This document shows, piece after piece, positions 13,071-51,138 of a stretch of 64,000 nt of DNA; positions within the stretch are counted from its first letter, which is position 1, and every line of letters begins with the position of its first letter. The translations under genes and the position numbers were made by a program. The notes under the pieces were generated by a model, which was not told where the DNA came from, did not search any database, and saw only the letters and a list, made by a program, of their open reading frames with translations. The stretch is from positions 1 to 64,000 of the IMG/VR virus record IMGVR_UViG_3300044838_000031; one strand, written 5' to 3'. This DNA comes from a virus.

Positions 13071-13442
13071 TCACCGCTCCTGTCGGCTGTAGTAGCTCAG
13101 CTGTGCGCGGGCGGAGTCTAGTTGGGTGGACACGTTGGCGAGTTCGGTTGCCAGCCTTCGGTTTTCGGCGCGCAGGCGGGCACACTCGGCGCACTCAGCG
13201 CCCGGATCATCGAGGGGTGCCGAGATGTTACGAAAGACGTCAAGCCGACCCTTGGGGCCGGTCGGATTTAGGTGTTGCGGGTCAGCAGGGCTAACGCAAG
13301 CAAGCCCCAGGTCAGAATCTGGAACGTCCTGCTGCTTATCCTCCCTGACAGACGGCTTGCTGAAAGACGAAACCCTTGAGGGGGAGTCCGAATTATGCCG
13401 TCTGCGAGGCTCGCTGCCGCACCAGCGAAGTATTTTTTTCAT
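13071..13442 (-). CDS. Coiled-coil hypothetical protein
   Basis: 123 aa from ATG 13442 (ATGA overlap). The first two thirds are low-complexity, Ser/Asp/Pro-rich. The last 40 residues form a coiled coil (CARLRAENRRLATELANVST and onward) headed by a CxxC (AECAECA). Function is unknown; the disorder-plus-coil layout suggests an oligomerising adaptor. Confidence 0.5.
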   Translation of the reverse strand: MKKILRWCGSEPRRRHNSDSPSRVSSFSKPSVREDKQQDVPDSDLGLACVSPADPQHLNPTGPKGRLDVFRNISAPLDDPGAECAECARLRAENRRLATELANVSTQLDSARAQLSYYSRQER

Positions 13443-13738: not shown

Positions 13739-14181
13739 GACGCCGCCTTATGTGCGGCGCGATAGTCGCGCTGCCACTGATTCGCACACGCACGACAATT
13801 CCGCTGAGTGCCGTTCTTTTTGTAGATCGTGTTCTCAGGCGTGTACTCGTGACCATTGACGCAGGAAGCTTGGTCTGCGTGGGATCGTTGGACGTTCACC
13901 CGTGGTGTGACGGGCTCTAGGTGTGCGGGGTTACAACACCGCTTGTTTCGGCAGAGGTGGTCGATCTGGAGGCCGGGCAGGATGGGACCTACGAGTAGCT
14001 CGTAGGACAGGCGGTGCGTGGAACAGACGCGGCCCTGGTAGCCGACGCTTCCGTAGCACTTGCTGCTGACAGCGCCCGTCCAGGTCCAGCAAGTGGGGTC
14101 ATCCAGGTCGGAAGCCATGCATAGCTCAAACCGGATCTTCCGTTGCATATTCGGCGGCAACGCGCCAGCATCGGTGCTCAT
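13735..14181 (-). CDS. HNH endonuclease (HNH_3 type)
   Basis: 148 aa. Pattern CWTWTGAVSSKCYGSVGY, then RLSYELLVGPILPGLQIDHL, then CRNKRCCNPAHLEPVT is the HNH_3 core: His of the beta strand, the Asn in CCNPAHLE and paired cysteines. The C-terminus has the module NGHEYTPENTIY followed by CRAC, shared with the HNH proteins at 27438 and 38692. It sits second in the leftward operon, between the HTH gene and a zinc protein, which is typical for a mobile homing endonuclease. Confidence 0.85.
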   Translation of the reverse strand: MSTDAGALPPNMQRKIRFELCMASDLDDPTCWTWTGAVSSKCYGSVGYQGRVCSTHRLSYELLVGPILPGLQIDHLCRNKRCCNPAHLEPVTPRVNVQRSHADQASCVNGHEYTPENTIYKKNGTQRNCRACANQWQRDYRAAHKAAS

Positions 14182-14390
14182 GCCGAAGCTTCGAGAACCT
14201 CAAGCGCGGCGTCCACATCGTGCTGGTAGACGCGGTAACTACGTCCCCCCGGCAGGCGGATGGCGGTGAGTCGGCCGTCTTTGATCCACCGTTGGACGGT
14301 GCGGGGACTGGTGCCGAGCTGGTCAGCAACCTGAGCGACGGTGAGAGGCTGATTCGTAGGTTTACGATCATAAATATGGTGATCTGCCAT
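14178..14390 (-). CDS. Excisionase-like winged HTH regulator
   Basis: 70 aa. From residue 15: LTVAQVADQLGTSPRTVQRW, then IKDGRLTAIRLPGGRSYRV and YQHDVDAALEVLE. This is the MerR/excisionase-family HTH with a Gly-Gly-Arg wing. It is the first gene leftward from the divergent switch, a position filled in temperate phages by Cro-like regulators or recombination directionality factors. Its promoter gives an mRNA starting at or within 2 nt of the ATG. Confidence 0.8.
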   Translation of the reverse strand: MADHHIYDRKPTNQPLTVAQVADQLGTSPRTVQRWIKDGRLTAIRLPGGRSYRVYQHDVDAALEVLEASA

Positions 14391-14398
14391 AGCGTCAG

Positions 14399-14428
14399 AA
14401 TGTATGGCGAGTTACCATAGTGTGTCAA
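14399..14428 (-). promoter_or_regulatory. Leftward early promoter, leaderless
   Basis: On the minus strand TTGACA (14428-14423) is separated by 18 nt from TACATT (14404-14399), a near-consensus sigma-70/SigA promoter. Transcription should start at or within 2 nt of the ATG at 14390, with no Shine-Dalgarno. The sequence TGTC-N6-GACA (14423-14436) overlaps the -35 box and is a candidate operator. Confidence 0.7.
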
Positions 14429-14442
14429 GTACGACATACCTA

Positions 14443-14472
14443 TTGGCGCGAATGGCGGTTATGGCTTATCGT
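14443..14472 (+). promoter_or_regulatory. Repressor promoter, leaderless
   Basis: TTGGCG (14443-14448), an 18-nt spacer and TATCGT (14467-14472). The ATG at 14480 lies 7 nt after the -10 box, at the expected transcription start, and no ribosome binding site precedes it. The arrangement is divergent from the leftward promoter, whose -35 box is only 14 bp away. Confidence 0.6.
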
Positions 14473-14479
14473 GACGTCT

Positions 14480-14875
14480 ATGACGAGCACACCTAACGAG
14501 GGGCTAGACCCCGTAAAACAGGGAAACGCGCTCATCGGAGAGCGGGTACATACCCTCATGTGGCGCGGCAGCCGTACCCAAAAGCAGCTCGCCGCGATCC
14601 TGAACGTCGATCAGGGATCGATCTCAAACCGCTTGCGCGGGAAGACAAACTGGTCGGCCGTGGACGTTTCCGTAGTAGCGCAATGGCTGGGCGTGCCGGT
14701 CACCGACATCATGCCCGAGGTTGAACTAGGGTCGGACCCTCCTGAGCCCGGCGCCGCTGGATATCGCGTCGCCGGGCTTCCGCTCCCCTGGGTGTATTCG
14801 AAACACCAACCCTTCGGTCAACGGTTTAGGGCGTGGTGGCTGCCGTCGCTGGCACCGGTATATAAGGCGGCGTGA
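14480..14875 (+). CDS. XRE-type helix-turn-helix repressor
   Basis: 131 aa from ATG 14480; a longer frame opens at 14420 but would run through the promoter. Residues about 15-75 form a Cro/C1-type HTH: GERVHTLMWRGSRTQKQLAA, ILNVDQGSISNRLRGKTNWS, DVSVVAQWLGVPVTDIMPE. The C-terminal half is short, without a LexA-type protease fold, as in mycobacteriophage repressors that are controlled by degradation or integration rather than RecA. It is likely the immunity repressor acting on the divergent promoters. Confidence 0.75.
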   Translation: MTSTPNEGLDPVKQGNALIGERVHTLMWRGSRTQKQLAAILNVDQGSISNRLRGKTNWSAVDVSVVAQWLGVPVTDIMPEVELGSDPPEPGAAGYRVAGLPLPWVYSKHQPFGQRFRAWWLPSLAPVYKAA

Positions 14876-15048
14876 TGAGCGGCGTGAGGTGGCATTACTG
14901 GCGGGTCAATCCTTGTGAGGTTCATGTTGTGCCGGAGTCTGAACGTACCCAGCATATGCCGTGTGGGTGTCCGTGCGGGGCTGATTTAGATGCGATGTCG
15001 GATGGTGTTGTGAGGGTGACGCACCGTGAGTTTGGTGGGGCGGCGTGA
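14875..15048 (+). CDS. Small Cys-rich protein
   Basis: 57 aa, start TGATG-coupled to the repressor stop. Contains HMPCGCPCGADLD, a dense cysteine cluster, and NPCEVHVVPE. Zinc-binding is likely. Nothing further is recognised. Confidence 0.5.
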   Translation: MSGVRWHYWRVNPCEVHVVPESERTQHMPCGCPCGADLDAMSDGVVRVTHREFGGAA

Positions 15049-15056
15049 TAAGCAGC

Positions 15057-15194
15057 ATGGCGCCTACTGATGTGTGTCGACGGTGCGGTCATACCCGTGA
15101 CCGTCATTGGTACAGCGGGTTTGTGTGCATCGAATGCGGCTGCACACGGGGCCGAATCGCAGCAGCGTTCCGGCCTCTGGCCTCAGCAGCGTAG
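15057..15194 (+). CDS. Small zinc-ribbon protein
   Basis: 45 aa: CRRCGHTRDRHWY and CIECGCTRGR give a two-knuckle zinc ribbon. It follows the previous gene by 8 nt. It may bind nucleic acid. Confidence 0.5.
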   Translation: MAPTDVCRRCGHTRDRHWYSGFVCIECGCTRGRIAAAFRPLASAA

Positions 15195-15206
15195 GAGAAT
15201 AGAAGC

Positions 15207-15497
15207 ATGATTAATCTGCGGATCGGGCGCATAGGCCAGGTGTTCGCGCCAGGTTACGGATGGTGCTTGCGCTGTAAGACGCCGTGGCTATTCGTAAGCT
15301 GGCACGATACCCAATACGGCGCGGACGGTAACGGCTGCCTGCCGTTATGCGAGAAGTGTTGGGGCGAACTCACGCCGGCACAGAGATTGCCGTTCTACCG
15401 CCAGTTGATTGAGTCCTGGCATGAGCGACCCGGTCGCGGGTTGACGCTCGATGAGGAATGGCCGCTAGTTGAATCTGCTGTGATGAGTGACCACTAA
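15207..15497 (+). CDS. Zinc-ribbon hypothetical protein
   Basis: 96 aa, AGGAGA upstream. WCLRCKTPWLFVSW and LPLCEKCWGEL form a CxxC...CxxC pair about 30 residues apart; the rest is helical (RLPFYRQLIESWHE). It probably binds zinc. Similar single zinc ribbons occur repeatedly in this block. Confidence 0.65.
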   Translation: MINLRIGRIGQVFAPGYGWCLRCKTPWLFVSWHDTQYGADGNGCLPLCEKCWGELTPAQRLPFYRQLIESWHERPGRGLTLDEEWPLVESAVMSDH

Positions 15498-15508
15498 CCT
15501 GTTGGTTA
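15495..15508 (+). repeat. Palindromic intergenic element 1
   Basis: TAACC-TGTT-GGTTA, 2 bp before the end of the common tail GTTAACAGTCTGAG (15505-15518). Lies between the stop at 15497 and the start at 15537. Confidence 0.7.
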
Positions 15509-15536
15509 ACAGTCTGAGTGCTAGAGGATGGAAAGC

Positions 15537-15890
15537 ATGATTGACACACCAAACGAGCCAGCGGCAGGCGCGCGCAACGGACGATGGGTAAAGCTCGGCC
15601 ATGTCGGCGTCGACTCCGCTTCCATCGGCATCACCGATCTACTCATGGGCGTCAAAAACTCGGTGTTGAACAACGTCGGCGCCGCCGAGTCGCGCTATGC
15701 AGTGCCAGGCTCGGAGTTCGCGGGCGACTGGGGCACAGGTATCCGTTTCTGGGCCGGCTTTGGCGATGGTGGTTACGACGTATGGGGCTGGATCGTCGAT
15801 TACGGCGACGACGAAGTAGACGAGCGAGTCGCCCAGATCGTCGTCACGATGATCAGCGCCGACGACCTGGACGATTGGCATGCAGGCTGA
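15537..15890 (+). CDS. Hypothetical acidic protein
   Basis: 117 aa from ATG 15537 with GGAAAG upstream (ATG 15528 is also open). A compact beta-rich protein: GRWVKLGHVGVDSASIGITD, then TGIRFWAGFGDGGYDVWGWI, ending with an acidic helix. Strongly acidic overall. No family recognised; it looks like other small immunity- or inhibitor-like phage proteins but this is not evidence of function. Confidence 0.6.
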   Translation: MIDTPNEPAAGARNGRWVKLGHVGVDSASIGITDLLMGVKNSVLNNVGAAESRYAVPGSEFAGDWGTGIRFWAGFGDGGYDVWGWIVDYGDDEVDERVAQIVVTMISADDLDDWHAG

Positions 15891-15913
15891 CAGTTGGCCC
15901 GATTACCGACCAC

Positions 15914-15927
15914 TAACTGTTTGGTTA
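15914..15927 (+). repeat. Palindromic intergenic element 2
   Basis: TAACT-GTTT-GGTTA, one mismatch in the left arm, preceded by GACCAC as in element 1 and followed by AAAGGA before the ATG at 15948. Confidence 0.6.
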
Positions 15928-15947
15928 CCGACGGAAAGGATGAGCAC

Positions 15948-16142
15948 ATGAGCGACGCGATCTATCACGAATCGGTGCCGCTGTGCCCGCACATCATGGG
16001 GTATTTCCGCAATGACATACCGCCCGAAGAACACCAGATCCTCACCGGCGAATGTGAGGAGTGCGGACCCGTCAGCGCGACAGCACCCCATCCTCGAATC
16101 GAGCGGCCTGGTTTCGGCTGCGGCATCAGAGCAGAACTCTAA
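15948..16142 (+). CDS. Small Cys/His protein
   Basis: 64 aa from ATG 15948 with AAAGGA upstream. VPLCPHIMGYF and ECEECGPVS supply cysteines and a histidine for metal binding. Function unknown. Confidence 0.55.
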   Translation: MSDAIYHESVPLCPHIMGYFRNDIPPEEHQILTGECEECGPVSATAPHPRIERPGFGCGIRAEL

Positions 16143-16154
16143 CCGGCTTGGTTA
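16140..16154 (+). repeat. Palindromic intergenic element 3
   Basis: TAACC-GGCTT-GGTTA; the left arm overlaps the TAA stop of the upstream gene, followed by AGAAAGGA and the start at 16175. Confidence 0.65.
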
Positions 16155-16174
16155 ATGACCTAGAAAGGAAAAAC

Positions 16175-16567
16175 ATGGGAACGATGACATTTTGGGATCG
16201 GCTCTGGCCGTGGCTGCGCCACCCTCTCGACAATGTGAGCGGGACTATCGCAGTGCGGTGGCTCGATCGGCACGACATGGTCATGGAGTATGCGGACAAG
16301 TACAACGTCATGCACGCATCGTGGAAATCGTCAGAGCAGAACGAAGATTACGTCGAATACCCCATAAGTTCGGACTCACAGACTACTACCTGGACGCTGC
16401 CCAATCCCGACACCGTGTCTGATGGCTTTCGATTTGCGATTCGGACTCCAAAAGGCGACGAGGCGTGGGTATGCGTCTGGGAAGGCAAGCATGCGTTCTG
16501 GGAACGGGTCAGTATTGATCCCGTAACCAAGGAAGGTGAAACGAAAATGAGGATTGTTAACAGTTGA
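16175..16567 (+). CDS. Hypothetical beta-rich protein
   Basis: 130 aa from ATG 16175 with AAAGGA upstream. Reads as a single globular beta protein: GTIAVRWLDRHDMVMEYADK, YVEYPISSDSQTTTWTLP, FRFAIRTPKGDEAWVCVWEG. No family is recognised. The stop lies inside a half copy of the repeat element. Confidence 0.6.
   Translation: MGTMTFWDRLWPWLRHPLDNVSGTIAVRWLDRHDMVMEYADKYNVMHASWKSSEQNEDYVEYPISSDSQTTTWTLPNPDTVSDGFRFAIRTPKGDEAWVCVWEGKHAFWERVSIDPVTKEGETKMRIVNS
16556..16563 (+). repeat. Half copy of the intergenic element
   Basis: GTTAACAG, then TTGAG and GAGGA, matches the right half of the element but without the left arm; it overlaps the 3' end of the coding sequence at 16567. Confidence 0.45.
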
Positions 16568-16576
16568 GAGGAAGAC

Positions 16577-16717
16577 ATGCAGGTCGACAAAGCTCTTGAC
16601 GAACTCAAGTGGATTCACAAGGGGTTGGAAGACGCCCAGCAATGGCACGACTGGGATGAGGTCGTGCGGCTACGCGGGCGGGTAAGCCACGCGATGGCAC
16701 TCCTGAATCCATCGTGA
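16577..16717 (+). CDS. 46-aa helical protein
   Basis: Preceded by GAGAGGAAGAC. An amphipathic helix (DKALDELKWIHKGLEDAQQW) then a second (DEVVRLRGRVSHAMALL). Function unknown. Confidence 0.5.
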   Translation: MQVDKALDELKWIHKGLEDAQQWHDWDEVVRLRGRVSHAMALLNPS

Positions 16718-16726
16718 CCACTAACC
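16718..16726 (+). repeat. Left half copy of the intergenic element
   Basis: CCACTAACC directly after the stop at 16717, identical to the left flank of element 1, without a right arm. Confidence 0.4.
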
Positions 16727-16734
16727 GTGGCGTC

Positions 16735-16905
16735 GTGAGCGACGAACATGACCGCCGAGCGCGGGAGTACATCGAGGACGTTCTTAGGATCAACACGGAG
16801 CACGGGATACGTAACACTGAGGACCAACGCATCATCGAGGCTGCTGTCGCGGATGTCGCTGGCTGGGCGCGGCGACTTCACCAGTTGGCTAAAACAGAAC
16901 CCTAA
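16735..16905 (+). CDS. Small helical protein, GTG start
   Basis: 56 aa from GTG 16735, chosen because the repeat half-site lies upstream; GTG 16714 would add 7 residues and overlap the previous stop. Helical and charged (DRRAREYIEDVLRI, IIEAAVADVAGWARRL). No Shine-Dalgarno is obvious. Function unknown. Confidence 0.5.
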   Translation: MSDEHDRRAREYIEDVLRINTEHGIRNTEDQRIIEAAVADVAGWARRLHQLAKTEP

Positions 16906-16917
16906 CCGGCTTAGTTA
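16903..16917 (+). repeat. Palindromic intergenic element 4
   Basis: TAACC-GGCTT-AGTTA with the same spacer as the copy at 16140; the left arm overlaps the stop region of the upstream gene; start follows at 16948 after TAGGAGA. Confidence 0.6.
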
Positions 16918-16947
16918 ACGACGAGTCATCGGAAATAGGAGACACAA

Positions 16948-17418
16948 ATGGGCTATGACATGTACATCGTCGACGGCGGCGGAAACGAGATCGACGAAAG
17001 CGGCGATAGCTTCTACCTGCACCGCAACATATGGGGCGGCCAGCGCCTTGCGGACGCCCTAGTCGATGCCGGAATCGGGTACTGGCCGACCGGGCCGCAG
17101 CGCGAATATCCACGCGAGCCGGATGACGCCGAGTGGGGGGACTACAACTACTCACACGAGCTGCCACCAGCCAACCCGGCAGCCACGCAGTATCAGGCGA
17201 CGATGTTTCGGCACCTTCAAGACACCCGCGACGAGCGTCCCGGCATCTCGGTCTACAAGCTGTGCGGCTCCAATGACGGCTGGTGGGTGACAAAGGTTGA
17301 GTGCGAGTCGGCGTTGAAGATGTGGGAGCAGGCCGGCAATCCCGAGGTTGACCAGTACGGCGACGTTATCCCGTTTCTCCGCGCGGCATCTAAGCACGAC
17401 GGATTCAGGGTTTGGTGA
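16948..17418 (+). CDS. Hypothetical protein
   Basis: 156 aa with TAGGAGA upstream. Starts MGYDMYIVDGGG, with beta strands and an acidic middle (EPDDAEWGDYNYSH), then SVYKLCGSNDGWWVTKVECE and a helical end. The MGYDMY opening and WxV-type strands recall a small family seen in actinobacteria and their phages, but I cannot name it. It is the largest gene of the block before the integrase. Confidence 0.6.
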   Translation: MGYDMYIVDGGGNEIDESGDSFYLHRNIWGGQRLADALVDAGIGYWPTGPQREYPREPDDAEWGDYNYSHELPPANPAATQYQATMFRHLQDTRDERPGISVYKLCGSNDGWWVTKVECESALKMWEQAGNPEVDQYGDVIPFLRAASKHDGFRVW

Positions 17419-17421
17419 CCG

Positions 17422-17440
17422 TTAATCTCGTAGTGTTAAC
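17422..17440 (+). repeat. Palindromic intergenic element 5
   Basis: TTAAT-N8-GTTAAC, a degenerate left arm with the full tail GTTAACAGTCTGAG (17435-17448) followed by AGAGGA and the start at 17459. Confidence 0.6.
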
Positions 17441-17458
17441 AGTCTGAGAGAGGACAGC

Positions 17459-17653
17459 ATGAGGTATCTGTACCAGCGGGGACGCGGTGCGAAGCGTCGA
17501 GTCATGCATCTGTGCCGCTTCGATCAGTTCGGAAACGCGACTATGCAGCCGATTTGTGGCCGCAGCAACGGACTGCACTTCGATACAACGTGCAACCTTC
17601 CGTTAGGTCAGCACTTATGCAAGCGGTGCCGAGCTGACGAGAGGATGAGATGA
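17459..17653 (+). CDS. Small zinc-binding basic protein
   Basis: 64 aa, AGAGGA upstream. Three Cys patches (MHLCRFD, MQPICGRS, QHLCKRCRAD) and many Arg. A DNA- or RNA-binding zinc protein is likely. Confidence 0.55.
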   Translation: MRYLYQRGRGAKRRVMHLCRFDQFGNATMQPICGRSNGLHFDTTCNLPLGQHLCKRCRADERMR

Positions 17654-17915
17654 GCGACGATCAGAAGTGCGCGGGCTGCGACGGTCCGCTATCCGAGGAG
17701 GATGGCATCACCCCTCGTCATGGACGATGCCAGCCTCCGTGAGTATTACTGCGCGACGTGCAAACCACCAGGTACCGGCTACACGATCAGCGACCTGCAG
17801 CAGATGCGCGATGACGGCCAAGCCGAACGCGCCAAGTACGAGATGTCGCTGCTGGACAAAGGTCGGCCCAGACGTGTACTTCGCGGTCAAAGGTCGACCC
17901 GATGACGACCTTTAA
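17650..17915 (+). pseudogene. Zinc-ribbon gene interrupted by two single-base insertions
   Basis: ATG 17650 (ATGA overlap) opens CAGCDGPLSEEDGIT, which stops early at 17742. A second frame carries DDASLREYYCATCKPP and a long helix, and a third ends VGPDVYFAVKGRPDDDL at 17915. Removing one C from the CCCC near 17710 and one A from the AAA near 17857 joins the three into one 87-aa protein with two CxxC knuckles spaced like a single zinc ribbon. The breaks may be decay or homopolymer assembly errors. Confidence 0.6.
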
Positions 17916-17928
17916 CCGTATGGGGTTA
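17911..17928 (+). repeat. Palindromic intergenic element 6
   Basis: TTAACC-GTATGG-GGTTAA, the most perfect copy (6-bp arms), then AACGGTTTGAAG and AAAGGAGG before the start at 17956. The TAA of the restored upstream gene lies in the left arm. Confidence 0.7.
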
Positions 17929-17955
17929 ACGGTTTGAAGCAGAAAGGAGGGCGTA

Positions 17956-18117
17956 ATGCCTGAGCCAGAGTGTGACGGTAAATGTGCTCGCGACGAATGC
18001 ATCTGCCCGGTTGACGACGCCTACGACTGGGTTGACGACGATTCGATGAGTGCAGAAGAGACCATGCGCCGATTCGAAGCGCTCGGACCTGAGGAGACTG
18101 TAGGACCACCGCCATGA
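17956..18117 (+). CDS. Small Cys-rich acidic protein
   Basis: 53 aa, AAAGGAGG upstream. CDGKCARDECICPVDD clusters four cysteines; the rest is very acidic. It may bind zinc or iron. Coupled to the next gene by ATGA. Confidence 0.55.
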   Translation: MPEPECDGKCARDECICPVDDAYDWVDDDSMSAEETMRRFEALGPEETVGPPP

Positions 18118-18440
18118 GAATTTCCATAGACCCGAATGTCCGCGTCGAGAACAACTGGACCTACTCGGGTTTCGAGGACGTGTTCGGCGATGTTCACTTG
18201 CTCAATCCCGGCGACTGGGTGACGGCGATGTGGGCGGAAACCGATCAGATTTTTGACGCCAAGGTTGTGTGCTTGGAATTCGAGCGGCGAATCATCACGC
18301 TCGCTGTCGACTGGAAATCCGTGCGAGTGGATCAGAGGCCGATCATCGTTGGCACGGTCACTATTTCGTCAGGTGGCCGCACTAGACGGCTGCCGCTAGG
18401 CGAAGCTATCTCTGTACCGATAGTGGGCCTTAATGGATAG
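18114..18440 (+). CDS. Hypothetical beta-barrel-like protein
   Basis: 108 aa; strands dominate (DWVTAMWAETDQIFDAKVVC, FERRIITLAVDWKSVRV, IIVGTVTISSGGRTRRLPLG), suggesting a small beta barrel. Coupled to both neighbours by short overlaps. Function unknown. Confidence 0.55.
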   Translation: MRISIDPNVRVENNWTYSGFEDVFGDVHLLNPGDWVTAMWAETDQIFDAKVVCLEFERRIITLAVDWKSVRVDQRPIIVGTVTISSGGRTRRLPLGEAISVPIVGLNG

Positions 18441-18693
18441 CGAGCCGTATGACGAGACCGGCACCACCGTCGAGCAGTTCGACGCGATGTGGAAAGAAGC
18501 AGAGCCAGTCGAGACTGTTGTAACGCCTCCGGGTAAATACGACTTCAAGACGCCGACCGACCTTGAGACACGAGTGCAGAACCTTATCAACTCGTGGCGA
18601 CATTCGGTCGATGAGGCTTTCGGCGACGACGAGGGCTCGATCACCATCATGGCCGACCAGCTTGAGCGCGTTCTACGCGGACCAGAACTCTAA
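18433..18693 (+). CDS. Acidic helical protein
   Basis: 86 aa. Acidic N-terminus, then a helix (LETRVQNLINSWRHSVDEAF). Overlaps the upstream gene by 8 bp. Function unknown. Confidence 0.5.
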   Translation: MDSEPYDETGTTVEQFDAMWKEAEPVETVVTPPGKYDFKTPTDLETRVQNLINSWRHSVDEAFGDDEGSITIMADQLERVLRGPEL

Positions 18694-18704
18694 CCTAGGG
18701 GTTA
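18691..18704 (+). repeat. Palindromic intergenic element 7
   Basis: TAACC-TAGG-GGTTA with the full tail GTTAACAGTCTGAG (18701-18714), then AAAGGA and the start at 18727. The TAA stop of the upstream gene is part of the left arm. Confidence 0.7.
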
Positions 18705-18726
18705 ACAGTCTGAGAAAGGATGACAT

Positions 18727-18954
18727 GTGAAACTTTCACGAACGAAACTGCGTGATCTGCGGCAAATCCTCGATCACTTCGCCCATCTTGCGCGCGAGTC
18801 CGCGCACGCGCATGCTCCCGCTGAGGGTGATCCGGCTAGCCCCTTCCATCAATACCTGATCGGAAAAGCTGAGGGACTGGAAGCAGCCCGCTACGAACTC
18901 GACTTGCTGCGGGAAAAGCTAGCCGACACCAAGGCCGTAATTCGCCTGAGGTAG
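18727..18954 (+). CDS. Helical hypothetical protein, GTG start
   Basis: 75 aa from GTG 18727; AAAGGA lies upstream and the ATG 2 nt before is out of frame. A long amphipathic helix pair (RDLRQILDHFAHLARESAHA, EAARYELDLLREKLADTK). Function unknown. Confidence 0.55.
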   Translation: MKLSRTKLRDLRQILDHFAHLARESAHAHAPAEGDPASPFHQYLIGKAEGLEAARYELDLLREKLADTKAVIRLR

Positions 18955-18964
18955 AGAGGAAAAC

Positions 18965-19255
18965 ATGAATGACGACGGTGATGAGTTCGGCTATGAGCTG
19001 GTGATGCCGTTTCTGCCAGTGCAATCCAAGGGTGGCCCGCACGATGATGCCGCCTATGTGGCTGGCTATGAGATGGGTCTACTGGACGCGCAATTGGGCA
19101 ACAGCGAGTACGACCAGGGCCGCGCCATCCACGGGGAGAACCGCGAGCAAGCCGACCTCATCGCGATGCGCCACGGCTACCTCGCCGAATTCACCAATGA
19201 CAGCGGCGACGGATGGGTCCACATGAAGGTCCACGAGGTGCCCGTAAACCGATAA
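18965..19255 (+). CDS. Hypothetical protein
   Basis: 96 aa with AGAGGAAA upstream. Acidic; contains AAYVAGYEMGLLDAQLG, a helix of the kind seen in small phage proteins that bind host enzymes, then AMRHGYLAEF. The stop overlaps element 8. Function unknown. Confidence 0.55.
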   Translation: MNDDGDEFGYELVMPFLPVQSKGGPHDDAAYVAGYEMGLLDAQLGNSEYDQGRAIHGENREQADLIAMRHGYLAEFTNDSGDGWVHMKVHEVPVNR

Positions 19256-19266
19256 CCGTGCGGTTA
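19253..19266 (+). repeat. Palindromic intergenic element 8
   Basis: TAACC-GTGC-GGTTA, with the stop TAA in the left arm and CCGGTTTGG after the right arm, unlike the AACAGTCTGAG tail of others. Another CGGTTAC pair occurs after the integrase (20717, 20731). Confidence 0.65.
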
Positions 19267-19319
19267 CCGGTTTGGCTGTCGCAGTGGGGGCGATTTTTCG
19301 GAGAGGAAAAGGAGAAATG

Positions 19320-19592
19320 ATGACGGTGACCGAGCCGGGATCGATTGATATCCCGTTGAGGGGCGATCTGCGTGAGTGCGTCTTATATGAACTCGACAGA
19401 ATCATCGGCGAGTTGGATGCGCCGTTCACTACGGGCCTGATCCCGCGAACGCTGGTCGCGCATCTGCGAGGTGTTGTTGATGCGTGGCCCAACGTTCAGC
19501 AGCACATTTGGAAAGAACCCGATGGGACTATCCGCACTCTCGGCCAGGAGCGGGCTGGCGTTTACGGCTTTGGAGAGGCAGAGAAGCGGTGA
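19320..19592 (+). CDS. Hypothetical protein
   Basis: 90 aa from the second of two ATGs at 19320, which has AAGGAG at better spacing than ATG 19317. Helical (CVLYELDRIIGELDAPF, TLVAHLRGVVDAW) with a Trp/Gly-rich end. Function unknown. Confidence 0.5.
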   Translation: MTVTEPGSIDIPLRGDLRECVLYELDRIIGELDAPFTTGLIPRTLVAHLRGVVDAWPNVQQHIWKEPDGTIRTLGQERAGVYGFGEAEKR

Positions 19593-19729
19593 CCCGTGAT
19601 GAGGCTATCGACCACATCTGGGACTTGTCGGATGGTATGGCTGCCGAATTTTTTTGCACCAGCGCCCAAGAAGACGAGCTCAGGCAGAAGACACGCGAGG
19701 CACTCGCCGCACTTGGGGTTCTGAAATGA
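19589..19729 (+). CDS. 46-aa acidic helical protein
   Basis: GTG 19589 overlaps the previous TGA (GTGA). Contains DHIWDLSDGMAAEFFCTS and a charged helix (EDELRQKTREALAAL). Function unknown. Confidence 0.45.
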   Translation: MTRDEAIDHIWDLSDGMAAEFFCTSAQEDELRQKTREALAALGVLK

Positions 19730-19836
19730 GGATCGATCCGGCGAAAGTTCTAGCTGAAGCGGCAGCCATTACTAGACGCGAATCTGTCAAGGAACTGTCA
19801 ACTTATCCGAGAACCGTCCGATCGAAAGTTACCTGA
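19726..19836 (+). CDS. 36-aa peptide
   Basis: ATGA overlap upstream; basic and helical (DPAKVLAEAAAITRRE). Short; kept because of coupling and the absence of an alternative frame. Confidence 0.35.
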   Translation: MRIDPAKVLAEAAAITRRESVKELSTYPRTVRSKVT

Positions 19837-19852
19837 GAGTAGGCACAGTGTC

Positions 19853-20704
19853 ATGGATCACATACATGCGCTGTCCTACTCATTGCCCGGCCAATGGGAC
19901 ACAGCACTCGACGGATGGATAACCTGGCTGATCGCCTCCGGAACCTCGACGGCGACCCGAAAAACACGCCGGGCTCATGTGCGGCGGATCGCCCGCGAAC
20001 TGGATTCTCAGCATCCCCGCGACATCACTGATGCGCAGCTGCTGGCGATCCTCGGCCGGCCGGAGTATTCGATGGAGCATCGCCGCGGCCTGCGCGCATC
20101 GCTGGCCTCGTTTTACCGCTGGTCCCTCGAACAAGGTGTCGTCGACGAAGACCCGACGTTGACGCTCCCCCACATCAAGGCGGCGCTCGGCGCCCCCAAA
20201 CCCGCCACCGACGACATCTGGCGCGCCCTCCTCGAACAAGCTAGCCCCCGCACCGCACTCATGGCACGACTCGCCTGCGAAGCCGGCCTTCGGCGCGCCG
20301 AAGTCGCCTGCGTACACAGTGATGACCTGAACGCCGGCATCGGCGGCGCCGAACTGATTGTCCACGGCAAAGGATCGAAGCAGCGCGTCGTCCCGATCAC
20401 AGTCTCCCTGGCCACGGCGATCGCCAAAGCTCAGCCATTCGGCGGCTTCCTGTTCCCGGGGAAGATCGACGGGCATGCCAGCCCGGACTGGGTTGGGCGC
20501 CTCGTCAGTCGGGTGATGCCGCCCGGCTGGAGCATCCACAAGCTCCGACATCGGGCGGCCAGTCGTGGGTATGCTGGCACCGGCAACCTGAGAGCTGTGC
20601 AAGAATTTCTCGGCCACACATCGGTGGCTACGACACAGCGTTATGTGGCAGTGTCGTCAGCAGAGATCAGGCTCATCTCCGACGCTGCCGGCACCGCCTC
20701 CTGA
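19853..20704 (+). CDS. int: Tyrosine-family integrase
   Basis: 283 aa. The N-terminal core-binding SAM-like domain (about 15-105) contains a helical bundle with LIASGTSTATRKTRRAHVRR. The catalytic domain has Arg147 in ACEAGLRRAEVACV, Lys in HGKGSKQRVV (about 174), the H229-K-L-R232-H233 box, His255 in FLGHTS and the nucleophile Tyr264 in TQRYVAV. It should recombine attP with a host attB. It runs rightward, last before a convergent HTH gene. A putative attP lies in the next 75 bp. Confidence 0.93.
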   Translation: MDHIHALSYSLPGQWDTALDGWITWLIASGTSTATRKTRRAHVRRIARELDSQHPRDITDAQLLAILGRPEYSMEHRRGLRASLASFYRWSLEQGVVDEDPTLTLPHIKAALGAPKPATDDIWRALLEQASPRTALMARLACEAGLRRAEVACVHSDDLNAGIGGAELIVHGKGSKQRVVPITVSLATAIAKAQPFGGFLFPGKIDGHASPDWVGRLVSRVMPPGWSIHKLRHRAASRGYAGTGNLRAVQEFLGHTSVATTQRYVAVSSAEIRLISDAAGTAS

Positions 20705-20779
20705 AACGTCACGTGACGGTTACGACCGCACGGTTACCGGTCTTCGATACGGGTCAGTTTAACCCCTAGATACTGGCGC
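20705..20779. other. Candidate attP / integrase-binding region
   Basis: Between the integrase stop and the convergent HTH gene: the palindrome CGTCACGTGACG (20707-20718), two direct copies of CGGTTAC (20717-20723 and 20731-20737) and an AT-richer end. Integrase genes of temperate mycobacteriophages usually adjoin attP. No clear tRNA 3' end is seen here, so the core cannot be named. Confidence 0.3.
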
Positions 20780-20977
20780 TTATCTCTTGCCTACCCATTT
20801 GCGTACGGTCATACGGTCCACACCGAGTAGTTCAGCGATGTCGCGTTGGGAGTAGTCGGCGTCTGCGGCTTCGATGGCCGCGTCCTTGGCGGCGTGCCGC
20901 TTTACCTCTACGTCGCTGCGCGCTGCGGTGAAAGCGTTACCTGTAGCGCGCCATCGTTCCTCCGTGGGAGTGCCCAT
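20780..20977 (-). CDS. Small HTH regulator
   Basis: 65 aa. The C-terminus is a clear HTH of the homeodomain-like/HTH_23 type: ADYSQRDIAELLGVDRMTVR, then KWVGKR at the end. The N-terminal half is a charged helix. It is convergent with the integrase and divergent from the 21013 gene. It may regulate integration or excision, or repress the 21-kb rightward genes. Confidence 0.7.
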   Translation of the reverse strand: MGTPTEERWRATGNAFTAARSDVEVKRHAAKDAAIEAADADYSQRDIAELLGVDRMTVRKWVGKR

Positions 20978-21012: not shown

Positions 21013-21195
21013 ATGAGTGATACGACGTTGAGCGGCTTGCAGCGGATCGTCATGGAGGCTGAGCGACTGCGCGAACCGGCGCCGCGCGGCTTTCCGGATG
21101 CGAAGCGCGTCGACCGGACCGATGCGATCTTGGATCTGATTATTCGCCTGGCGCGGGAGGTGGATGACGTGCTGCGTATTGCCACGCGCGACTAA
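21013..21195 (+). CDS. 60-aa helical protein
   Basis: Leaderless-type start. Helical throughout (LSGLQRIVMEAERLREPA, TDAILDLIIRLAREVDDVLR). It may be a partner of the divergent HTH protein. Function unknown. Confidence 0.55.
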   Translation: MSDTTLSGLQRIVMEAERLREPAPRGFPDAKRVDRTDAILDLIIRLAREVDDVLRIATRD

Positions 21196-21213
21196 AATGG
21201 GCGGGGCCGCTAG

Positions 21214-21303
21214 ATGTCGCATACTGGATCAGCTGCAGAACACTTCGGTGCAGTGGATGCAGTCAGCCGCCGGTATGCCGGAATCTGGAAAGCGTCGGTA
21301 TGA
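21214..21303 (+). CDS. 29-aa peptide
   Basis: ATG 21214 to a TGA that overlaps the next ATG. Short; no Shine-Dalgarno except a weak purine stretch. Kept for the coupling with the 21300 gene. Confidence 0.3.
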   Translation: MSHTGSAAEHFGAVDAVSRRYAGIWKASV

Positions 21304-21590
21304 GCGCACGTAAACAACTCGAGGATCGCGCCCGCGAACTGGGCTGTTTCCCTGATCCCGAGAACTACACCGACGTGCAGCTGTGGGATGCCATCAAATG
21401 CGAGCTGGCCGCGACTGGCTGGATGCAGAAATACGAGGCACTACCCACTGACGAGGACCGTATGGACGCAGTACACCGGCTGCGGCTGTCATTAGAACGA
21501 GAACGCCAACCTCGTGGTTGCCGACGCAAGGATGAGTACCGAAACGCCGCCCGCGCCGCGCTCGACGCGATGGAAGACCTAGAGAGGTAA
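21300..21590 (+). CDS. Hypothetical charged protein
   Basis: 96 aa. Helical with a conserved-looking WDAIKCELAATGWMQKYEAL. High in Arg/Glu. Function unknown. Confidence 0.55.
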   Translation: MSARKQLEDRARELGCFPDPENYTDVQLWDAIKCELAATGWMQKYEALPTDEDRMDAVHRLRLSLERERQPRGCRRKDEYRNAARAALDAMEDLER

Positions 21591-21592
21591 GT

Positions 21593-21775
21593 GTGAGCAG
21601 TGAGCCGCGCGAGGCAATCGCACGCATTCTCTACAACGAGGTGCTAGAGACTAGCGACGGTTACACCGAGCCCATCGGCGAGACCGAGTCTATGGACACG
21701 GTTCTGACGATTGATGGCCGATTCAACTTCGTTGACCTAGCCGACGCGGTCATCGCCGCGCTGGGACTGAAATAA
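21593..21775 (+). CDS. 60-aa hypothetical protein, GTG start
   Basis: GTG 21593, with AGAGG of the preceding stop region as ribosome binding site. EPREAIARILYNEVLE, then TIDGRFNFVDLADAVIAALG resembles the small phage/bacterial pattern in which a helix-strand-helix ends in ADAVIAAL. Function unknown. Confidence 0.55.
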   Translation: MSSEPREAIARILYNEVLETSDGYTEPIGETESMDTVLTIDGRFNFVDLADAVIAALGLK

Positions 21776-21802
21776 CAGACCGGCAAATGAAAGGTAGTTG
21801 CT

Positions 21803-22009
21803 ATGGCTCATGCAGGTGAAGTAACAATCAAGGTCAAGCCCGACCTCTCGGCGGTACAGAAGGCCAATCCCGAAGAAGTGACCGCTGTGTTGGCGGAACA
21901 CGTCTACGGCGACCGAGGCCCTGCAGCTGGGCACCCCGACGCATTGAGCGTCTGCACCCGGGCCGCTATCGACCTCTGCGATCGGTTCTACATCCTGCCG
22001 CGCACCTGA
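21803..22009 (+). CDS. 68-aa hypothetical protein
   Basis: AAAGG upstream. Starts MAHAGEVTIKVKPDLSAV, then a helix with CTRAAIDLCDRFY. Function unknown. Confidence 0.5.
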   Translation: MAHAGEVTIKVKPDLSAVQKANPEEVTAVLAEHVYGDRGPAAGHPDALSVCTRAAIDLCDRFYILPRT

Positions 22010-44067: not shown

Positions 44068-47000
44068 TTGGGCAGCGTACGAGCTCTCCACATGCCGGCC
44101 GATGTCTTGCCCGGCACTATTACTGTCGCCCTCGTCGTGAAAATGCTCAATGTGGACCAGCGGCCCGCTGCTGCCACTGCCGACTGAGCCGCCTTGGTCG
44201 AACCCGCGGGGTGTTGGACCAGCGGGGCCGACCACAGAGTTGGGGGATGGTCCTTGGAACGGGGCCATGTTCGGCCCGACTGCGGCGTCCCCTAATACAG
44301 AGCTGGGACCTGGCCGCGGCCCGGCAGGCACCCCGCTGGGGTTAGTCACCGGCCCGGGTGCCGCTGGTGGCGCTGACGCTCCGGGTGCGATGCCGCGTGC
44401 CGGCCCGAACGGTGACACTTCCTGCGGCGGCGTCATCATCGGCGGCGTCATTCCTGGAACGCCTGCGGGTGAGCTGTTTTGGGATTTGCCGGCCATGTTG
44501 GGGATTTGTGGTTGGGCGCCCATGAGGCCGCCGCCGATACGGGTCAACCACGAATTTTGGGCTAGTTTGCTGGCGCCGGTGGGTAGGAATGTTTCCGTGA
44601 ATGCTTCGGCGCCGACGCCGGCTAGTTGGCCGGCGTATTTGATGGCGCGTTGCGCTTCTTGCGCGGCGATGCTGGCGCCGAAGGACATCACGCCGGCGAC
44701 GGGGTCGGATAGGGCGGCGGCGCCGCCGCCGAATCCCGAGTAGATGGCGCCGGCGCCGCCGCTGCCGCCGGGTATCCCTGATCCCTCGCCTTTGTCTGGT
44801 GAGCCGCCCCCGATGTGGGTCGCCTCCCCTTGACCCGGTGGAACGGTGTCGCCGCCCGCCATGTGCAGCGATGACTTGAAGGACGCGACACCGGCGGGGC
44901 CGCCCATAGCGGTCACCTGGGGGACGCTGAACACTTCCTCACCGGGCGTTAGCCATGCCGGAACTGTGTCGGTTCCGCTGGGACCTCCGCCACCCGCATA
45001 GCCCTTCGGCGGCATGTTCGGGTTGGCTTGCTGAACGCCGCCGATGCCGCCGTAGCGGCCTTGAATGTATCGGATACCTGCGGCGATGTTGGCCACCGGA
45101 TCAGTGATCGACCCGGATGTCCCCGGTACGTGATTGCCCGCGAACGTGCCGGGAATGGTTTGCATCAACCCCTGTGATGGGTGTCCTGCTAGAGCGTTGC
45201 TGTCCGACAGATTGATGGCGTTGGGGTTGCCGCCGGATTCGCGGCCGATCAGGGTTTTCAGGCCTGAGGTCCAGGATGCGTCAACGCCGGCTGCGGTTTC
45301 TGCGGCGGTGATCCACGCATCTAAATTAGCCCCAGCGGGCGCCCCCGGAGCGCCGCCGCCCGCTAGCGCAGGTGCAGCGGCACCCGGTCCGCTGCCTGTG
45401 GCCGCGCCGGACCCACCCTGTGCGCCGAGACTGCCGGGGCCTCCGCCGAACGGGCCGCTCATAAAGCCGCCCAGGCCGCCGCCGCCGGGACCGCTGCTGA
45501 TGCCGGCAGCGGAGGCGGCCATACCGATCAGGCCACTACCGCCAGTGGCCTTGGCGCCGGCAGCCATCTGATTCAGCGCAGCCAACGGGCCGGCCATCAT
45601 CAGATTCCCCAGGAAACGGGTCAGGTTGTCCGCGATCCCAGCTAAGCCTTTGCTGACACCGAAGTCTTTATCAATTTTGGCGCCGAGGTCGGACATGTCG
45701 CTGGCGTGCTTTTTGGTCTGCTCAAGTTCGGCTTTGTTGTATTCGCTGATCGCTTTGAGCTGGTCGTTTTTGGCTTTTTGGATGGCGTCGGCGTCGTCGG
45801 CGTTGGTTTTCTCGAGCTGGTTGAGTCGCGCCGTGGTTTCGTCGATACCGTGCCGCTTCTCGAGGATGTCCTGTTCACGGCTGTACTGCTCGGCGCTCTC
45901 CCCCGGGCCGGGGGGTGCGCCGTAGCCGGCTCCGTACGGCACCTGAGGGGCTTCGGGTAGCCGCGGTCCTTTTTTGGGTTTGCCGCTGGCGTCGAAGTCG
46001 CCGGGGGTGAGTAGATCGCCCGGTGGGCCACCCGTGTCAGGGGTGCCCGGGGCGACAGGTGCTCCCGGCAGCCCCGGGCCTGCACGCCCACCCACGTCGG
46101 GGCCTTGACCGGGCCCGAATCGGCCCGTCCCCTGCCCGGCCGGTGGTTGGCCCGGCGCGCCGGCTGCTGCGCCGGGGGCCTGCATGTAGGGGCCCATGCC
46201 GGCGGGCATCGGACCCTCCCCCTGCAGCCATTGTTGGTAGCCGGGCGGCATCTGGCCGCCGTGCGCCTGTTGGTAGCGTTGCCCGGCCTTCTGTTTGTCG
46301 GAAGCGTTGCCGGCGGTGGCGCCGCGGGCGTCGCCGGCTGTCGCCAACACCTCTGCGGCGGTGGTGCCGACCAAAAGTAGGTCCGCGACTATGGTGCCGA
46401 GGGTTGCTGCGAGCCCAAGCATGGCGGTCTCGCCGACTTCGGCGGCCGCGGCCACCGCAGCCCCAGCCGAGGCGGATGCGGTTTCGACGGTAGCGCCGGT
46501 CGCGACTGCGGTGGTTGCCTCAAGGCCCAGCCACGTCACAATCGATTCGATGCCGGTCAATACGAACCCGAACGCCTTAAGGCCAACCCACGCCTCGAAC
46601 GCTAGCGTGATGGCGTCGATGAGGACTGGATGGCGCCCAAGGAACGCCCCGATGTTAGCGAGACCTCCGACGACATCTCCTATGGCGGTGAGAGATGTTT
46701 CGAAAAGTTGTCGCAGGTCATTAGCGTGGGCGTCGATGAACTTGATGAGCCCATCCATTTTGCCGGCTACCACATCAACAACACTCATGCCCGGCGGCGC
46801 CAGGGCGGCATCAATCGCGTTCTTGACGTGTTCCCACTGATTGCCAAGTGTCGCAGTATCTTTCGCCATCTGGGCTAGGTACTGGGCGTCCCCGGCGTAC
46901 GACGATTCCTTGGCTTTTTGTAGCGCGTTAATGGCCGCCAGCTCGTCAGTCCATTTCCGGGGGCCACCGATCCCGAGAGACACCGCTTCGGCGGCGGCCT

Positions 47001-50794: not shown

Positions 50795-51138
50795 CAGATG
50801 TGGATGTCCTTGGCGGCGATGCTGTCGATGAACGCCTTCGTCGACGTCAGGGTGTGGTGCGGCGGGGTGTCGTGGGTGCCGTACTCGATGGACACGGCGC
50901 CGGGGTCGTCGTTGCGTATCTGCGACATCGGCAGATCACCTTCACGGCGGGGCGCGTAATCCCGTACGCTCCAATACTTTTGGAAGTCGCCGGCGTGCGC
51001 ATCGTCCCCGATGGGGGAGATGGATTGGGCGTAGTTGAGGCCTGCTTCGGCGAGGTCGTGTGTTTCTTTGGCGATGCGCTGCACATGGTCGGTGCGCACC
51101 ATTTCCGCGATGAGTTCACCGACCGTGAAACTAGCCAT
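50794..51138 (-). CDS. Head-tail connector, HK97 gp10-like
   Basis: 114 aa. N-terminal helix (DHVQRIAKETHDLAEAGLNY), then the HK97-gp10 pattern with a Gly-Asp-rich loop and beta end (PGAVSIEYGTHDTPPHHTLT). Overlaps the next gene by 1 bp. Confidence 0.65.
   Translation of the reverse strand: MASFTVGELIAEMVRTDHVQRIAKETHDLAEAGLNYAQSISPIGDDAHAGDFQKYWSVRDYAPRREGDLPMSQIRNDDPGAVSIEYGTHDTPPHHTLTSTKAFIDSIAAKDIHI

Follow-up and report, generated by a model that had tools for sequence, protein, structure and literature searches.

A tRNA-Asn-like palindrome repeated at the ends of small phage genes may be a cassette boundary

By what route phages acquire and trade single small genes at precise gene borders has long been asked; the usual answer combines selection with illegitimate or relaxed homologous recombination. 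In integrons, attC sites have the core RYYYAAC / GTTRRRY and a length of about 57 bp or more. We have analysed a 64,000-nt stretch of DNA from a mycobacteriophage-like virus (the window) that carries an array of small genes and repeats, and several described systems resemble it in part. Integron attC arrays and CALINs (PMC8618304) share with it the tandem, small and co-oriented ORFs, mostly of unknown function, the partly palindromic sites at their ends and the adjoining tyrosine recombinase; here, however, the site is ~24 bp long and tRNA-Asn-like, the recombinase is a phage integrase, and recombination is what we infer. Cluster O mycobacteriophages carry 17-bp palindromic repeats (TGTTCGG-N3-CCGAACA), which are likewise numerous, short and often intergenic, and some insertions and deletions in these phages go back to recombination between the repeats; their sequence is different, they have no clear orientation, about a third lie within genes and no tie to stop codons or tRNA has been reported for them (PMC4351075). 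The start-associated sequences (SAS/ESAS) of cluster K are also short repeats that follow the direction of transcription where small non-structural genes meet, but SAS reads GGGATAGGAGCCC and sits at translation starts, whereas the present element has another sequence and sits at gene ends (PMC3203893). Cluster A stoperators similarly lie between genes or overlap gene ends, in one orientation to transcription; they are 13-bp asymmetric repressor sites found genome-wide, whereas here dyads occupy a few gene islands and leave the repressor promoter free (PMC3029335). In integration-dependent immunity, attP lies within the repressor gene (prophiGD43A-5, PMC4557955), where the window and its relative G017 have a tRNA-like stretch; unlike in that system, the repressor and integrase genes of the window are ~5 kb of cassettes apart.

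The window contains eight copies of a palindromic element, one of them diverged, and two half copies, with the consensus GAMCNC-TAACC-N4-GGTTAAC. They are spread over the 'cassettes', an array of ~17 small ORFs of unknown function (15207..19836, + strand), between the genes of a 131-aa immunity repressor (14480..14875, +) and a 283-aa tyrosine integrase (19853..20704, +). Further out lie the genes of an excisionase-like protein of 70 aa (14178..14390, −) and a small HTH protein (20780..20977, −). The initial annotation had spoken of early genes, a setting that we revise: the block of small ORFs begins at the immunity repressor, ends at the tyrosine integrase and does not consist of early lytic genes. 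The cargo ORFs had no family match in Pfam or PADLOC, and the best PHROG matches of the integrase were phage integrases.

All copies are on the + strand. Elements 1 (15489..15512; gaccacTAACC.TGTT.GGTTAACAG; 29.5 bits in a profile search), 2 (15908..15931; gaccacTAACT.GTTT.GGTTACCGA; 27.6 bits), 3 (16134..16158; gaactcTAACC.GGCTT.GGTTAATGA; 29.6 bits) and 4 (16897..16921; gaacccTAACC.GGCTT.AGTTAACGA; 27.0 bits) are followed by the diverged element 5 (17417..17442; gaccgtTAATC.TCGTAG.TGTTAACAG; 15.6 bits), and then by elements 6 (17907..17932; gaccttTAACC.GTATGG.GGTTAACGG; 27.6 bits), 7 (18685..18708; gaactcTAACC.TAGG.GGTTAACAG; 30.5 bits) and 8 (19247..19270; aaccgaTAACC.GTGC.GGTTACCGG; 24.2 bits). 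The half elements comprise a right arm plus tail (16556..16568; GTTAACAGTTGAG) and a left arm (16716..16726; GACCACTAACC). The array is real: every site of the initial annotation exists, and exact TAACC-N4-6-GGTTA cores occurred five times in the window record, against a shuffle mean of 0.055 (shuffle maximum 1), all five at gene junctions. Its description of eight near-complete copies with spacers of 4 or 5 nt and two half copies needed correction in detail: the copy at 17423 is diverged (TAATC-N6-TGTTA), the spacer at 17913 is 6 nt long and the sites at 16556 and 16722 are single arms. The exact tail TTAACAGTCTGAG was found three times, as had been described, each time rightward, with none in the reverse control. 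Alignment of the copies revealed conserved arms around a variable centre, which in four window copies is 5 or 6 nt long and not 4. Conservation reached past the palindrome into both flanks: GAMCNC on the left, where all 16 copies examined have A at -5 and C at -3, and AC[GA] on the right.

The leftward genes of the window held no strong independent copy, with a best profile match of 15.3 bits compared with 24-31 bits for the seven good copies, which agrees with the initial observation. Two weaker copies had gone unlisted. The one at 14807 (14801-14824, +; CAACC.CTTC.GGTCAACGG; 19.7 bits) lies within the repressor gene, in its 3′ part, and overlaps a candidate attP; the other, degenerate and within an ORF, is at 21507 (21501..21524, +; CAACC.TCGT.GGTTGCCGA; 19.2 bits). 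A further degenerate element 3′ of the integrase gene (20715..20745; CGACC.GCAC.GGTTACCGGT) has the same right flank as element 8.

Within the repressor-integrase block, all eight gaps of at least 30 nt carry an element copy, and the 12 shorter junctions are all without one. The TAA stop codon of the upstream gene falls within the left arm at 15495, 16140, 16903, 17913, 18691 and 19253; the initial annotation had reported this for several copies. Most copies lie 18-50 nt upstream of a start codon, and they run in the same direction as their genes both in the window and in its relatives. In these genomes, each cassette consists of a tandem ORF with a 3′ site in a single orientation, which is the integron type of arrangement. 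The attC core itself is absent, since left 7-mers such as CTCTAAC and the right GTTAACR misfit and the conserved length is about 24 bp. The gene ending at 17913 is frameshifted. The element marks the 3′ gene end and bounds the gene there. That it belongs to the gene end follows from a copy at 50891 of the relative G009, where the next 350 nt downstream contain no gene start; hence, the suggested positional analogy with SAS/ESAS fails.

Pattern searches found the element in two distantly related phages, G009 and G017. With a profile trained on window copies only, their copies scored 21-36 bits, compared with at most 11 in a reversed-sequence control, and G009 has five exact cores against 0.03 expected. 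These copies are co-oriented with the local genes, and the upstream TAA is usually inside the left arm. The centres TAGG and GTGC recur across the two phages (P = 0.004). The homology of ORF 17650-17915 with G009 stops at the end of element 6, whereas a gene common to G009 and G017 (77%) is accompanied by the element in G017 only, the homology ending just before it, which counts against a cassette site. The orientation of the G017 copies, opposite to the attP core, counts against it as well. The searches turned up no close relative, which is why neither an empty nor an excised site was seen.

Beyond these phages, the exact element with its strict tail had no related match in viral contigs and 84,980 genomes; the genome scan covered this tail alone, so that mycobacterial chromosomes may hold arrays with other tails. 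The six genome matches were isolated, scattered copies, and no named actinobacterium was among their carriers. Contigs retrieved with looser patterns mostly held single copies, mainly in AT-richer sequence and not in arrays. BLAST of the elements against 50,697 phage records returned chance matches only, and an Rfam search gave no credible match.

Among the contigs retrieved with the bare element pattern, one turned out to be a tRNA-Asn gene. In antisense, the element matches actinobacterial tRNA-Asn from the T-loop to the anticodon loop. The window profile scored 20-24 bits on the tRNA-Asn genes of four records, 8.3 bits on the best of 23 other tRNAs and at most 15.1 bits in 2000 tRNA shuffles. 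The single consistent difference is a C to T change at arm position 1, and this change gives the cassette gene its TAA stop codon. The repressor gene of G017, whose integrase is 74% identical to that of the window, contains 38 bp of tRNA-Asn (94.7%). This stretch is probably attP, and the tRNA-Asn gene is probably the chromosomal attachment site for this group of integrases. The candidate attP of the window (14770..14824, +), in the 3′ part of the repressor gene, includes a tRNA-like stretch (14770-14818) with a blastn match to G017 44239-44287 and the centre CTTC of tRNA-Asn; its support consists of only 13 exact tRNA-Asn bases and this G017 match.

We give a probability of about 0.5 to the reading in which the element is a cassette-end boundary built on the core-type (attachment-site) sequence of the integrase, analogous to integron cassettes. 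The initial annotation had listed cassette recombination boundaries among its proposals; the gene-end position, the homology end of a shared cassette and the tRNA-Asn match favour this one, with recombination itself a matter of inference. The inverted conserved arms RACCNCTAACC and GGTTAAC-[AG], flanking a short variable centre at the 3′ boundary of small co-oriented cassettes, would be bound by a tRNA-Asn-type integrase. Copies with matching centres would then recombine, and small cassettes could be gained, lost or traded among phages in the fashion of integron arrays. Conserved inverted arms and a variable centre are those of a core-type site, but a fixed overlap length is expected there, and the variation of the centre between 4 and 6 counts against this reading, since a tyrosine recombinase should not accept it. 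The main evidence against an integrase site comes from G009, which has the best-preserved copies yet an unrelated integrase. Its copies occupy two operons distant from this integrase, and no tRNA-Asn attP is recognisable in G009, so that the match of the element to a cognate attB/attP does not extend to this phage. An array without a matching recombinase resembles a CALIN (PMC8618304).

The same genome lends support to passive homology patches, that is, a short repeat at which general homologous or annealing recombination swaps genes without a recombinase of its own, while the likeness to tRNA-Asn is an ancestral trace. G009 encodes a single-strand annealing protein and lacks the tRNA-Asn integrase, and Corndog gene 14 lies between 17-bp direct repeats that are single-copy in relatives (PMC4351075). 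We consider this rather unlikely, as conserved arms with a varying centre and the retained integration-site match are left unexplained.

Less probable is a sequence-specific phage DNA-binding protein, for example the HTH protein, that would occupy the intergenic dyad and form a roadblock or a silencer there, in a stoperator-like regulon. The perfect dyad, its mostly fixed spacing and its intergenic, transcription-oriented placement, as in cluster A (PMC3029335), fit such a role, and the C-terminal HTH segment IAELLGVDRMTVRKWVGKR is identical in the window and G009. Promoters, including that of the HTH gene, are nevertheless free of copies, and the tRNA-Asn match and the stop codon in the arm are not accounted for. 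An intact copy occurs in G017, where no HTH homologue was found, while G001 has a nearly identical recognition helix and no copy in 54 kb, although the repressor side is missing from its sequence. The HTH protein had no further match in phages.

Slightly more doubtful still is a translational or RNA element, with stop codon, weak hairpin and Shine-Dalgarno forming a portable intercistronic insulator like the cluster K start-associated sequences. The element does lie between stop and Shine-Dalgarno, with the start codon mostly 18-50 nt downstream. Folding was no stronger than in shuffles (z -0.96 to 1.33) and few predicted structures contained the hairpin, which speaks against the initially proposed mRNA hairpins uncoupling genes. 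The distance to the start varies, the G009 copy at 50891 has no start within 350 nt, the loop is variable, and the arm sequence is kept and not mere pairing. With a five-bp stem, no T run and a folding z of about 0, the element does not resemble an intrinsic terminator. A promoter was rejected, as a second conserved hexamer is absent and the space before the start codon is too small; antisense pairing with tRNA-Asn is unlikely because the centre needed for it is not conserved. That the copies are operators for the immunity repressor of this phage, as suggested initially together with stoperators and by the repressor gene directly upstream of the block, is very improbable, since the excisionase/repressor intergenic region (14390-14480) has no profile match and holds a distinct dyad, ATGGY-N5-RCCAT (ATGGTGATCTGCCAT and ATGGCGAGTTACCAT), and the G009 and G017 copies lie in other operons.

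Returning to the cassette boundary, we tentatively propose that some mycobacterial temperate phages may carry integron-like arrays whose recombination sites derive from the tRNA-Asn integration site; the integrase would read the arms, and the centres would decide the exchange partners, avoiding recombination with the host tRNA gene. A repeat at the end of gene after gene suggests that the phage gathers small genes at ready-made docking sites and exchanges them there. Giving the stop codon and resembling the chromosomal docking site, this repeat offers a concrete, testable route of gene exchange. If the integrase does not act on the element, the tRNA-Asn likeness needs another explanation; if it does, phages would own an integron-like system.

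The full virus record comprises 64,196 bp, of which the window covers nearly all. The rightward block (14480-20704, + strand) opens with an immunity repressor gene, matched to a PHROG transcriptional repressor; the repressor region shows ~67% DNA match to phages WST1 and IdentityCrisis. About 17 small ORFs follow, in which domain searches revealed no known domains, and a tyrosine integrase gene comes last; an excisionase-like gene (14178-14390) lies divergently to the left. The block is therefore a repressor-integrase block and not an early lytic region, which corrects the "early genes" setting proposed in the initial annotation. The dyads ATGGTGATCTGCCAT and ATGGCGAGTTACCAT (~14365-14430), between the excisionase-like gene and the repressor, are the probable true repressor operators.

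Exact TAACC-N4-6-GGTTA cores occurred five times against 0.055 expected from dinucleotide shuffles, with three near-copies and two half copies making up the rest of the series. All eight of the block's gaps of at least 30 nt held an element, and the 12 junctions that were shorter or overlapping held none. The palindromic array described in the gaps of the rightward genes was confirmed. The upstream stop codon had been placed within the left arm "in several" copies; indeed, the first three arm bases form the TAA stop in six of eight. Compared with its homologue, one of these six ORFs (17650-17915) is disrupted by two one-base insertions, reflecting either sequencing error or a pseudogene; the insertions fall in short runs, and the homologue in the related phage G009 (50889-51269) is intact.

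Pattern scans of IMG/VR yielded two further carriers, G009 (IMGVR_UViG_3300021404_000017; 51,308 bp) and G017 (IMGVR_UViG_3300036804_000088; 66,486 bp). G009, probably a complete, circularly mapping genome, has a direct terminal repeat of ~140 bp at the record ends. It holds five exact cores (0.03 expected). Three point rightward and lie in an island that separates the structural from the early genes; the two leftward cores belong to a methyltransferase operon, lying inside it and at its end. In G017, a single intact copy and several decayed ones adjoin the integrase. A profile trained on the window only recovered these copies at 21-36 bits (reversed-sequence controls, at most 11), bearing out conservation in related phages, and intact copies run in the direction of the adjoining genes. 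The three phages have little DNA in common, their shared proteins are mostly 23-74% identical and their cargo is almost wholly different; conservation of the element thus extends well past that of its surroundings. In the window, a second small island of rightward genes (21052-22009), with a degenerate element (21507), adjoins an HTH gene, as does the element-bearing island of G009. The small HTH proteins (window 20780-20977; G009 13109-13276) have identical C-terminal segments and divergent N-termini, each gene adjoining a rightward gene island.

Alignment of 16 copies gave the consensus G-A-[CA]-C-N-C-T-A-A-C-C-(N4, rarely 5 or 6)-G-G-T-T-A-A-C-[GA], with conserved arms (A at -5 and C at -3 invariant) and a variable centre. 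Two of the window's four 4-base centres recur exactly in G009 (P = 0.004). The suggestion of small mRNA hairpins found no support, RNA folding being ordinary (z from -0.96 to 1.33).

In the sole cargo gene common to the window and G009, homology runs to the element end and stops there. For a gene common to G009 and G017 (77%), homology is confined to the gene itself, with an element directly behind it in G017 and none in G009. The G009 copy at 50891 comes after the last gene of its operon, and the next 350 nt contain no start codon. Hence, the element is tied to gene ends. On either side of the window's integrase segment lie element 8 and a degenerate copy, which have their right flank (GGTTACCGGT) in common, and the G017 integrase gene is flanked by two element-like direct repeats (CTCTAATC-N4-GATYAGC; 42707 and 43793), the second being a near-perfect longer palindrome, AAACC-N-CTAATC-AGTA-GATTAG-N-GGTTT.

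A 49-bp stretch within the repressor gene is common to the window and G017 (14770-14818 and 44239-44287; peptides LPWVYSKHQPFG and LPWEESNLQPFG). In G017, 38 bp of the stretch match mycobacterial tRNA-Asn at 94.7%, the form expected when an attP corresponds to a tRNA gene; in the window, 13 bp match exactly. An attachment site within the repressor characterizes integration-dependent immunity (PMC4557955; also prophiGD43A-5), which these sequences suggest here, with tRNA-Asn as attB. The element itself resembles tRNA-Asn, a likeness spotted after the fact: the antisense segment (AACCTC-CAACC-CTTC-GGTTAACAG) agrees with the consensus at all conserved positions but the first arm base. Scores were 20-24 bits for four tRNA-Asn genes, at most 8.3 for 23 other tRNAs (controls from one Streptomyces phage) and at most 15.1 for shuffled tRNA. 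One contig retrieved by the bare element pattern was a tRNA-Asn gene, and an element-like copy (14801-14824; 19.7 bits) overlaps the window's attP-like stretch.

Inverted arms that are conserved around a variable centre, a co-oriented position at gene ends and a likeness to the integration site are, in combination, as expected of core-type recombination sites at cassette ends, where we infer both integrase binding and recombination. Counting against this, some copies have longer centres, neither a cognate integrase nor attP was found in G009, and no close relative showed cassette gain or loss at an element.

Neither the literature searched nor the cultured phage records yielded a described phage element with these features. 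Cluster O palindromes and cluster A stoperators occur in a similar setting, but their sequences and positions are not those of the element. The analogy drawn with cluster K SAS/ESAS likewise held for setting and failed for position, the element being tied to gene ends; sequence differs, as already stated there. The element falls outside the attC definition of integrons, but an integron cassette array is the nearest functional analogue of the window's array.
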